DNA of 61,386 nt from [Clostridium] symbiosum. Lineage in GTDB: Bacteria > Bacillota > Clostridia > Lachnospirales > Lachnospiraceae. Where the stretch lies: assembly GCA_021769625.1 (NCBI GenBank), contig JAETSN010000019.1, positions 1 to 61,386 on the forward strand, in the 5' to 3' direction. Under the pieces are notes generated by a model. The model did not search any database. It was not told the DNA's origin and was given only the letters and a program-made list of their open reading frames with translations. Both the position numbers and the translations under genes were made by a program. This document shows positions 9,505 through 50,915 of this stretch, one piece after another (positions within the stretch are counted from its first letter, which is position 1; each line of letters begins with the position of its first letter).

Positions 9505-9546
9505 CGGGCATCCGATCCGCACAATATTATTCAGTTAGCACCTCAA

Positions 9547-9643
9547 CCAGCTGGCAAGAACATAAAATACTTAAGGAGCCCTTTGAAAAACAGAGCCTGC
9601 GAGAGCGTGGCGACGAAGTATTTTATGTTCTTGCCTGCGTCCG
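9547..9643 (+). repeat. Dispersed nested-hairpin element, copy A (shortest form)
   Basis: A 97-bp element bounded by CCAGC and GCGTCCG. Its outer arms at 9553-9572 and 9616-9635 are perfect 20-bp complements, and after a T-T mismatch the GC/GC of the boundary motifs also pairs. The loop starts AAGGAGCCC and contains a GC-GAGA-GC tetraloop hairpin at 9599-9606. Unlike copies B-D it lacks the inner AAAAAGCG-type stem and its apical hairpin. It lies between the convergent BceB-like and RsiV-like genes and could terminate both, but other copies occupy non-terminator positions. Confidence 0.8.
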
Positions 9644-24052: not shown

Positions 24053-24229
24053 CTCCTCCTGTTCTGGTATACTATATGATAATACCGCGAATGGCTCCGC
24101 TCTTCGAGCTCCCGCCATTCTGCAGCCATTCGCAATCCGCCTTTTCAAGCTCCCTGCTCATGTTTGTTCGGGTTCCAAGGCCATGTACTGGCATGCAAGC
24201 ATGCCGTCCATAACTTTTGAACCCCGGTA
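24053..24229 (-). other. Structured purF-purB intergenic region
   Basis: This 177-nt gap inside the pur series holds three inverted repeats. On the minus strand GGGTTC pairs with GAACCC around a GGCATGC/GCATGCC hairpin, and GCGAATGGCT pairs perfectly with AGCCATTCGC further on. No T run follows any of them and no ORF with a ribosome binding site is seen. Possible roles are mRNA processing or a weak internal promoter (TATACC near 24070). Confidence 0.4.
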
Positions 24230-25678
24230 TCATTGTACATATTCCCCCCGGATGTCCTCTTCCGGCGGGTCGATCGGATAATTTCCCGTAAAGCAGCCGT
24301 CGCAGATGCCAAGGCCGCCAACCAGCTCCCTGAGCCTCTCGATCCGCAGATACCCCAGCGTATCGGCGCCGATGATCTGCCGGATCTCCTCTATGCTCCT
24401 GTTATAGGCGATCAGCTGCTCCCTTGCGGGCACATCCGTGCCGAAATAGCAAGGCCATAAAAAGGGCGGCGCACTGACGCGCATATGCACCTCTTTCGCT
24501 CCGGCATCCCGCAGCATGCGCACGATCCTGTCCGAAGTGGTGCCCCGGACAATGGAATCATCGATCATCACGATCCGCTTGCCTTCCACCGCTTCCCGGA
24601 TGACATTCAGCTTCACCTGCACACTGCTCTCCCGGCTCTTCTGCCCTGGTTTGATAAAAGTCCTGCCGATATAAGTATTCTTTACAAAAGCCTGTCCGCA
24701 GGGAATCCCGGACTGCAGCGAATACCCGAGCGCCGCCACGTTTCCCGACTCCGGCACTCCCACCACGAGGTCCGCTTCCACCGGCGAATCCATCGCGAGA
24801 TATTTTCCCGAAAGGATTCTGGACTGATAGACGCTGACGCCGTCAATGCGGCTGTCCGGCCTTGCAAAATAAATATACTCAAAAATGCATCTGCCATGCT
24901 CCTCCGGGCTGATACACATGCTCTTATCCGATTCGATCCCCTTCTCCGGGCTGATCGTCACGATTTCCCCCGGTTCCACGTCCCTGACAAACTCCGCGCC
25001 CACCGTATCCAGAGCACAGCTCTCTGAAGCAAGGATATAGGTGTTATCCCTCTTCCCGATGCAGAGCGGCCTGAAGCCAAAGGGATCTCTCGCCCCGATC
25101 AGCTTTCTGGGCGACATGATCACCAGCGCATAGGCACCCTTTATCTTCTTCATGGCGCGTGCCACCGCCTCCTCGACGGACCTGGAATTCAGACGCTCCC
25201 TCGCCACATGGTAGGCGATCACCTCGGAGTCGATGGTAGTCTGGAAAATAGCGCCTGTATACTCCAGTTCCCGGCGCAGTTCCGGCGCGTTCACCAGATT
25301 GCCGTTGTGGGCAAGCCCCAGCGTACCTTTCACATAGTTTAACACGAGAGGCTGGGCGTTTTCCCTTGAGGAAGAACCGGCTGTGGAATACCGGACATGG
25401 CCCACGCCGATATCCCCGATCAGTTTTCCCAGCTTTTTAGCACTGAAAGATTCGTTCACAAGCCCCATATCCCTGCTCGAAAGGACCTTCCCCTTCGGCC
25501 CGTTCGTATCGGAAACCGCGATACCGCAGCTCTCCTGCCCTCTGTGCTGCAGGGACAAAAGGCCGTAATAAATCGTTTCCGCCACGTTTCCGCCGTCAAA
25601 ATCATAGATGCCGAAAACGCCGCACTCTTCCCGCAGATCGTCATTTAACTCTTCGTTAACAAAAATTTCTCCCGGCAT
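24230..25678 (-). CDS. purF: Amidophosphoribosyltransferase
   Basis: A 482-residue enzyme catalysing the first committed step of purine synthesis. The Ntn glutaminase nucleophile is Cys19 (REECGVFGIYD), so residues 1-18 are a cleaved propeptide as in the Bacillus enzyme. Glutaminase motifs (LQHRGQESCGIAV, HVRYSTAG, AHNGNLVN) are followed by the phosphoribosyltransferase half with the PRPP loop VMIDDSIVRGTTS. The C-terminal CDGCFTG supplies ligands for the iron-sulfur cluster. The start is three nt after the purC stop. Confidence 0.96.
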   Translation of the reverse strand: MPGEIFVNEELNDDLREECGVFGIYDFDGGNVAETIYYGLLSLQHRGQESCGIAVSDTNGPKGKVLSSRDMGLVNESFSAKKLGKLIGDIGVGHVRYSTAGSSSRENAQPLVLNYVKGTLGLAHNGNLVNAPELRRELEYTGAIFQTTIDSEVIAYHVARERLNSRSVEEAVARAMKKIKGAYALVIMSPRKLIGARDPFGFRPLCIGKRDNTYILASESCALDTVGAEFVRDVEPGEIVTISPEKGIESDKSMCISPEEHGRCIFEYIYFARPDSRIDGVSVYQSRILSGKYLAMDSPVEADLVVGVPESGNVAALGYSLQSGIPCGQAFVKNTYIGRTFIKPGQKSRESSVQVKLNVIREAVEGKRIVMIDDSIVRGTTSDRIVRMLRDAGAKEVHMRVSAPPFLWPCYFGTDVPAREQLIAYNRSIEEIRQIIGADTLGYLRIERLRELVGGLGICDGCFTGNYPIDPPEEDIRGEYVQ

Positions 25679-27474: not shown

Positions 27475-27532
27475 CGTTTCTCCGTATATCAAATATGTAA
27501 AATCCAACCTCACCTGTCAGTTAAAACCTCAA

Positions 27533-27729
27533 CCAGCCGGGAGGAAAATAAAATCCTCAAGGAGCCCCTTAAAAAACGCCGGCACTTTAGCCAATGTGAA
27601 GAGATTTTCTAAGACGCTAAAGCACAGCGTCCAAGAAAATCTAAACTTCACATGCGAGCTTAGTGTCCGCTGCGTTTTTTTGGAGCGAAAGCGCGGCGAT
27701 GGAGGATTTTATTTTCCTCCCGGCGTCCG
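27533..27729 (+). repeat. Dispersed nested-hairpin element, copy B (longest form)
   Basis: A 197-bp element bounded by CCAGC and GCGTCCG. Outer arms at 27536-27558 and 27702-27724 are perfect 23-bp complements. Next come AAGGAGCCCCTT and an inner stem AAAAAACGC/GCGTTTTTT. The apical loop of copies C and D is replaced by a long extra hairpin at about 27593-27653 (ATGTGAAG with CTTCACAT, GATTTTCT with AGAAAATC, GACGCT with AGCGTC). A GC-GAAA-GC tetraloop lies at 27685-27692. It sits inside an amino acid transporter operon, between the permease and ATPase genes, where a strong terminator would be unexpected. Confidence 0.85.
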
Positions 27730-37961: not shown

Positions 37962-38110
37962 CGGACGCATCCCGGGCGTATGGATATCCTGTTCAGGACG
38001 CGCTCTCGCTTGATGAAAAGCGCAGCGGTACTAAGCTCGTGAGATACCTCGCTAAGTACCGGCGTTTTTCAACAGTCCTTCACAGGATATCCATACGCCC
38101 GGGATGCTGG
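37962..38110 (-). repeat. Dispersed nested-hairpin element, copy C (reverse orientation)
   Basis: A 149-bp element reading on the minus strand from CCAGC (38110-38106) to GCGTCCG (37968-37962). Outer arms at 37967-37992 and 38082-38107 are perfect 26-bp complements and share little sequence with the arms of A, B and D. Inside are AAAAACGC/GCGCTTTT, an apical hairpin CGGTACTTAGC/GCTTAGTACCG with one T-T mismatch, and a GC-GAGA-GC tetraloop at 38002-38009. An extra hairpin, GTCCGCT/AGCGGAC, abuts its end at about 37940-37966. It fills the space between two divergent promoters. Confidence 0.85.
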
Positions 38111-50670: not shown

Positions 50671-50745
50671 GAAGCCACAGACCTCCTATTTCTATCACAC
50701 ATCAACATCTTCCGATGCCTCAATGATTTTAGTTAACGCCTATAC

Positions 50746-50888
50746 CCAGCCGGGAGGAAAATCAAATCCTCAAGGCGCCCCTTAAAAAGCGTCGGCACTT
50801 AGCGAGGTCCCTCACGAGCTTAGTACCGCTACGCTTTTTTGGAGCGAAAGCGCGGCGACGGAGGATTTGATTTTCCTCCCGGCGTCCG
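50746..50888 (+). repeat. Dispersed nested-hairpin element, copy D
   Basis: A 143-bp element from CCAGC to GCGTCCG. Outer arms at 50749-50771 and 50861-50883 are perfect 23-bp complements. They differ from copy B at one base pair (A-T in B at 27550/27710, C-G here at 50763/50869), a compensatory change. Then come AAGGCGCCCCTT, inner stem AAAAAGCGT/ACGCTTTTT, an apical CGGCACTTAGC/GCTTAGTACCG hairpin with two mismatches, and a GC-GAAA-GC tetraloop at 50844-50851. It lies between hom and the PGM-like gene, inside what looks like an operon. Confidence 0.85.
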
Positions 50889-50915
50889 TTACCATTACCT
50901 GCGCGATGCCCCGAT

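Follow-up and report, generated by a model that had tools for sequence, protein, structure and literature searches.

A dispersed nested hairpin with covarying stems, probably the interior of a new IS66/ISBst12-type MITE family in [Clostridium] symbiosum and its relatives

Short structured mobile repeats lying between genes include the RUP, BOX, ERIC and Correia elements, which the repeat described here resembles in this respect. REP elements, for which RAYT transposases are known, are intergenic palindromes present in high copy number; the present repeat shares this palindromic, intergenic and high-copy character, differing in its size, in its ends and in that no Y1 gene lies beside it in the genome under study.

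Regarding the Bacillus cereus group, the repeats bcr1 to bcr3 are described, in the available extract of the source, as dispersed, MITE-like and often placed in UTRs or operon spacers (PMC3446304), and the present repeat can be likened to them, by that description alone, as a dispersed repeat similar to MITEs. MITEs of known insertion sequences, such as MITEPsy1, are likewise short and gene-free, with ends like those of the parental IS; the difference is the covarying interior, of which the extract of that report makes no mention (PMC3189936). Members of the IS66 family with 8-bp repeats appear in excerpts of two further sources (PMC12898284, PMC3281130), and one of them, ISDge4 of the ISBst12 group, has the end GTAACTGCTCAGCA and an 8-bp direct repeat as given in the excerpted text (PMC12898284). 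Comparing GTAACTGCTCAGCA with GTAACAGTTCAGCC, the end of the present elements, 11 of 14 positions are alike, and the 8-bp repeat is found in both. Moreover, related transposase frames bear the identical 14-bp end of the present elements, which differ from the ISBst12 group in being gene-free and in holding only a nested hairpin. No description of this element was found among the best-ranked matches of one open literature library.

The window, that is, the whole stretch of 61,386 nucleotides of [Clostridium] symbiosum DNA that was analysed, contains four copies of the repeat, named A to D. Their coordinates and their shared ends, CCAGC and GCGTCCG, are as the initial annotation had given them, and all four outer stems are listed among the 14 inverted-repeat pairs found by a scan of the window. 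The same scan bears out the stem lengths reported before, as D and B each have 23 bp of perfect pairing, C has 33 nt at 94% identity with 26 bp perfect at the outer end, and A has 23 nt at 96%, comprising 20 bp of perfect pairing and a mismatch. The motif AGTTA, seen upstream of A, B and D, is indeed present and corresponds to the left-arm remnant of a MITE. The features of the window are as follows, the arm remnants being given with their local alignment scores and the copies with their covariance-model (CM) scores.

9547..9643, forward strand: copy A, a deletion form with outer stem and GNRA hairpin, lacking P3 and P4 (CM R1, 75.6 bits)
9522..9546, forward strand: left-arm MITE remnant of A, CAATATTATTCAGTTAGCACCTCAA (score 30, against 19.4 for the 99th percentile of control flanks)
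27533..27729, forward strand: copy B, full form whose apical loop bears an additional hairpin (CM, 125.7 bits)
27519..27532, forward strand: left-arm MITE remnant of B, AGTTAAAACCTCAA (score 20, slightly over the 99th percentile of the control)
37962..38110, reverse strand: copy C, full form, differing in its outer stem and without MITE-arm trace (CM, 123.4 bits)
50746..50888, forward strand: copy D, full form (CM, 165 bits, D being one of the 37 model sequences)
50717..50741, forward strand: left-arm MITE remnant of D, GCCTCAATGATTTTAGTTAACGCCT (score 28)
50890..50900, forward strand: right-arm MITE remnant of D, TACCATTACCT (score 18, against a control 99th percentile of 17.3)
50749..50771, forward strand: P1 left arm, outer stem of D
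50861..50883, forward strand: P1 right arm, outer stem of D
50784..50792, forward strand: P3 left arm of D, AAAAAGCGT
50831..50839, forward strand: P3 right arm of D, ACGCTTTTT
50799..50823, forward strand: P4 of D, conserved apical hairpin TTAGCGAGGTNNNTCACGAGCTTAG
50844..50851, forward strand: P5 of D, GC-GNRA-GC hairpin with the loop GAAA

The observation of a covarying, dispersed hairpin is real and larger than described, and it is partly explained, as the repeat probably represents a new IS66/ISBst12-type MITE family. The copies are probably the interiors of these MITEs, where the nested hairpin outlives the transposon ends, and the fold itself is most likely maintained as a working folded nucleic acid. 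None of the window copies carries transposon ends, inner-arm remnants being present only in A, B and D, while the left-arm score of C is 14, below the control threshold of 19.4; the assignment of A to D to the family is made because they are related to intact copies elsewhere. The initial annotation could not match the repeat to a known riboswitch, intron, MITE or REP family, which holds for Rfam, where no match to the four copies at gathering scores was found, nor in seven further loci, and the matches at D below threshold were dismissed as chance-like. It does not hold for MITEs, as intact copies have IS66/ISBst12-type ends and 8-bp duplications.

For the analysis of the fold, 37 of 71 copies of the host genome, those of 138-147 nt with recognisable ends, were aligned (alignment A1), and the covariance model was built from this alignment. 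With the structure P1 to P5, 95.8% of the cells are paired, compared to 83.5% in shuffled alignments and at most 47.5% in slid versions of the structure. Changes on both sides were found in 29 of 46 pairs (15.7 when shuffled) and the covariation score was 0.350 against 0.131, and none of 500 shuffles came as high for any of the three measures. The compensated arms claimed from four copies are thus seen as covariation beyond the column make-up. RNAalifold, when unaided, produced P1, most of P3 and P4, and P5, with a local AGG/CCU helix near the assigned P2.

Among host-genome copies picked by their core alone, with enough flank, the outer arms match strongly in 64 of 66, and the other two are truncated. 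The wider set, restricted to outer-arm scores of 24 or more, holds 71 copies of the host genome, 43 of the congener G006, 48 of other genomes and one of the congener G001; 65 of 69 core-picked host copies pass this filter, and the four that were lost lie at contig edges (two) or are truncated (two). Considering the 71 outer stems of the host genome, 48 have no mismatch, 12 have one and two have two, and the nine with 5-12 mismatches are nearly all alignments that enter the flanks. In the set of other genomes, 33 of 48 outer stems have at most two mismatches. The P5 loop has the GNRA form in 65/71 host, 40/43 G006 and 44/48 other copies. The loop parser prefers a G in the first and an A in the last place and leaves the third free, giving such a loop in 149 of 162 copies, and the third position is a purine in all 149.

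The family was described as dispersed, which is confirmed, and its size of four copies is an understatement, since the core hairpin is present no fewer than 74 times in the host genome. With up to three mismatches, the core hairpin TTAGCGAGGTNNNTCACGAGCTTAG is found 74 times in the host genome, nine times in G001, 38 times in G006 and not at all in G024, the reversed pattern giving zero in each of the four. Collection by the core hairpin alone yielded 69 distinct host copies. Copy D compared with its own genome gave at least 40 matches with E 1e-30 or better, D included, among the 40 of 151 candidates scored. A covariance-model search, as suggested with the initial annotation, recovered all four window copies and extended the family to 147 of 397 sampled genomes of one family, presumably the Lachnospiraceae, in 129 of 334 genera (E 1e-4 or better), with eight candidates scored per genome, so that the copy numbers are floors.

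Twenty of these CM loci were read back, one from the host genome, one from a congener and 18 from genomes of other genera. Their left arms are mutually unrelated, with a median identity of 25% over 190 pairs, and the arms are paired in all of them, from 42/54 to 23/23 columns, although the model itself selects for pairing. At L424 (genome G291) the outer stem extends into the flanks as a near-perfect inverted repeat, with 48 of 49 columns paired. By searching named genomes for the exact core, with no arms sought, at least 96 stretches were obtained, with 106 core sites among the matches listed, and long matching arms accompany 52 of the 106, so that the arms in other genomes are also compensated. 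The other sites comprise 16 with a TATAAT-like box just upstream (7% at random places) and 38 with neither.

In these last two groups the hairpin forms short and often tandem units. Apical hairpins of this kind, lacking the nested element and reading CACTTAGCGAGG...CTTAGTG, are seen at L048 385-520, L061, L076, L120, L121, L115, L100 and L072, and in some cases they stand directly behind a TATAAT-like box. Rfam gave no match at these free-standing hairpins.

Regarding the ends of the element, a few copies extend outward into inverted arms terminating in GTAACAGTTCAGCC. The youngest copies are MITEs of 173-226 bp with the ends GTAACAGTTCAGCC / GGCTGAACTGTTAC and terminal inverted repeats starting with GTAA. 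Among the seven two-ended copies scored, all within this size range, four have a perfect 8-bp target duplication (CTGCTCCG, CTATCATT, AACCGTTG and TTTTTCAG), the others matching at 6/8, 5/8 and 3/8 positions. Two shorter elements of the host genome were left out of this count, L290 and L302, of about 70 and 41 bp, which have both transposon ends and no nested hairpin. When at most one mismatch is allowed, the end GTAACAGTTCAGCC is found 32 times in the host genome (control 0) and 90 times in G001 (control 1). In G001, and at L387, L394 and L407, other elements sharing these ends appear to have multiplied in a burst, many of them at contig edges. Further elements of 165-174 bp, in which identical or nearly identical ends enclose hairpins of another kind, are present at L393 and L406 (G007) and L411 (G004); these three have no matching 8-bp flanks, which counts against the MITE reading.

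The decay of the arms is graded, from complete (L256) to none, and in 35 of 68 host copies one side or both retain a MITE-arm trace that exceeds the 99th percentile of control flanks. The remaining 33 without any arm trace count against the MITE reading, as do the low share of host copies with an end motif within reach (about 11 of 69) and the automatic scan of the 20 CM loci, in which no ends with duplication were found except for one weak match. In another genus, at L419, the inner MITE arms are visible by eye. Inverted repeats in the flanks were also considered as a general trait and discarded, the mean score being 13.4 against 13.1 with shuffled partners; young copies alone show them clearly.

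The end motif led to a transposase at the G006 locus L382, where a truncated PF03050 (IS66) frame is followed by exactly GTAACAGTTCAGCC. When this piece of protein was searched against the 397 genomes (E 1e-15 or better), four loci in three genomes were found, all four with GTAACAGTTCAGCC just past the frame; the open frames reach 356-357 aa in G390 and are shorter in the other two genomes, and some of the loci are fragments. The relatives hold 24 PF03050 loci, of which L382 alone carries GTAACAGTTCAGCC and three end in GTAAGCGTC, two of these with perfect 8-bp duplications, and no such ends were recognised in the remaining ones. In the host genome, no PF03050 match was found in the 145 contigs, an assembly from which repeats may be missing, and this again counts against the MITE reading.

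The MITE reading can then be put as a sequence of events. Intact members (173-226 bp, GTAACAGTTCAGCC / GGCTGAACTGTTAC) would insert and duplicate 8 bp of the target, presumably mobilised by an IS66 transposase of the ISBst12 group acting in trans, as the ends and duplications suggest. Their interior is a nested hairpin of about 145 nt, in which P1, of about 20-28 bp and free in sequence, encloses P2, P3 capped by P4, and the GC-GNRA-GC hairpin P5. Once a copy is inserted, its transposon ends would erode and the hairpin would remain paired through changes on both arms. Most likely the fold persists because it works in folded form, whether mobility requires it or the cell tolerates or uses it as an RNA hairpin directly behind genes, and template-switch correction between the arms may help to maintain it.

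Long stretches of the window can be aligned to five congeners, and by sequence A is absent at the matching site in two congeners (G005, G008), B in three (G004, G005, G008), C in four (G004, G005, G007, G008) and D in six (G001, G004-G008), with no CM match at the D loci of G002 and G003. This pattern indicates gains of the present lineage or losses in the others. Conversely, G006 has a CM match in a gap (L219) where the window has none. At the site of D, the same gene gap holds a different hairpin repeat in G005 (L143) and G006 (L144), with outer arms that differ between the two and nevertheless pair (GCAGAATCACC/GGTGATTCTGC; GCATAAATAC/GTATTTATGC) around a similar interior.

Three loci have the element in common, equally oriented, between at least two species. 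The copies at L018/L284 are identical at 161 of 165 columns, compared to 70/112 and 85/100 in the adjoining flanks, and at L016/L325 two of 22 P1 pairs have changed on both sides, with none changed on one side. At L026/L332 ten outer pairs have changed on both sides and one on a single side, and a rare outermost T-A pair is shared; the two belong to different subfamilies, so another copy may have taken the place of the original there. The three old shared-locus copies (L016, L018, L026) have no MITE trace, as expected if ends erode.

The reason why the fold persists is where the explanations diverge. One possibility, given somewhat less than even chances, is that the hairpin was domesticated as a candidate 3'-end RNA element downstream of stops, ending transcription or protecting mRNA ends. 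It is in line with the gene context in the host genome, where 49 of 66 contexts have a 3'-side gene that points towards the element (p 1e-4), this gene ending no more than 40 nt away in 41, and 38 of 49 tandem gene pairs take one orientation, the distances being approximate due to simple open-frame gene calls and element borders set as fixed offsets from the core. However, the bias has the same sign without being significant in the other sets (25/42, 20/36 and 10/17 for the 3'-side gene; 21/34, 14/20 and 6/9 for tandem pairs), and it does not grow with age, since an early impression from few copies failed when the 64 of 66 contexts matched to a flank score were compared (25/33 with MITE traces, 23/31 without). 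Also in its favour, P3 is in many copies an A-run/GC/T-run hairpin in both directions; nevertheless, some subfamilies have no T-run, and a terminator scan around D found none. The invariant purine of the P5 loop, as in RNA GNRA loops, and the better conservation of the shared copy L018/L284 than of its flanks also favour an RNA role, but in most host contexts the strand with the GNRA loop runs antisense to the gene next to it. Moreover, mismatches show no consistent strand. Counted in 37 ungapped copies with 1-3 mismatches, those of P1 are 19 G-U, 17 A-C and 12 others, with G-U/A-C splits of 10/3 in the host genome, 2/8 in G006 and 7/6 elsewhere, and one P3 pair has seven A-C and no G-U; strand assignment by mismatch types was dropped, being balanced overall and opposite between the host genome and G006. 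This lack of strand preference is in line with an explanation judged rather improbable, and slightly more so than the RNA role, that the pairing is a functionless by-product of mutation, in which template switching between the arms during replication repairs the palindrome. The published mechanism can, in the accessible part of the source, both produce and maintain perfect covarying stems (PMC8794818), and it fits the near-perfect arms, the multi-base changes with few intermediates and the very long inverted repeat of L424. Against it, unpaired parts are conserved as well in the host genome, namely the GNRA loop, GAGGT..ACGAG of the P4 loop, CAGC and GCGTCCG, and among the 20 CM loci the GNRA is kept in 18 and the core in 15 despite the unrelated outer arms. 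The initial annotation took compensation to imply selection for a folded form, which is plausible but falls short of proof, as template switching also gives covarying stems and the mismatch types do not decide between the two; the covariation found here may also have such an origin. The conserved loops together with the changes at the same loci suggest selection on the folded form.

It is also conceivable, and regarded as unlikely, that the nested hairpin is an independent mobile unit merely hitch-hiking in IS66-type MITEs in this genus. The sharp borders of conservation at CAGC and GCGTCCG in the host genome would be those of such a unit, which would also be consistent with the wide presence of the hairpin, with ends unrecognised in the CM loci and with an apical hairpin found outside the nested element. 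On the other hand, target duplication at the hairpin's own borders was sought in 33 copies and rejected (best mean identity 0.38, 0.37 when permuted), and the MITE arms decay in a graded fashion. Mobilisation of the IS200/RAYT kind was likewise rejected, since the host genome has one Y1 transposase gene, which looks like an IS200-type gene, and no repeat beside it, the 2.3-kb locus around it (L132) having no CM match. Compared with these readings, the interior of an IS66/ISBst12-type MITE remains the preferred one. A broader and doubtful proposal is that of a structure-first mobile element, defined family-wide by the nested hairpin with its paired stem of free sequence, having IS66-type ends in at least one genus and surviving the loss of its ends at fixed loci by two-arm changes, whose apical hairpin recurs in separate arrays of short hairpins, a part of them directly following promoter-like boxes, as though a single host factor might recognise all of them.

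Covariation usually counts as proof that an RNA is functional, and here it is found in a mobile DNA repeat that reaches dozens of copies in a genome and supplies previously unrecognised hairpins at many gene ends. As close species differ in whether they have the repeat at a site, and share it at some fixed loci, it offers a test bed for distinguishing selection on structure from template-switch repair, the interesting feature being a stem of free sequence that remains paired for so long.

In addition to the copies, the sole Rfam match in the window is a Clostridiales-1 RNA (RF01699) at 24080-24232 on the reverse strand (110.2 bits), away from all four. In three host loci, L293, L297 and L299, the usual apical hairpin is swapped for another one, which reads ACTTAGGCGC...GCGCCTTATGT in L297 and L299, and the apical part then seems to be exchangeable. 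At three other host loci, L006, L008 and L019, the upstream flank GCATATTTAACTGCATGGGCG is common to all three and the downstream flanks differ.
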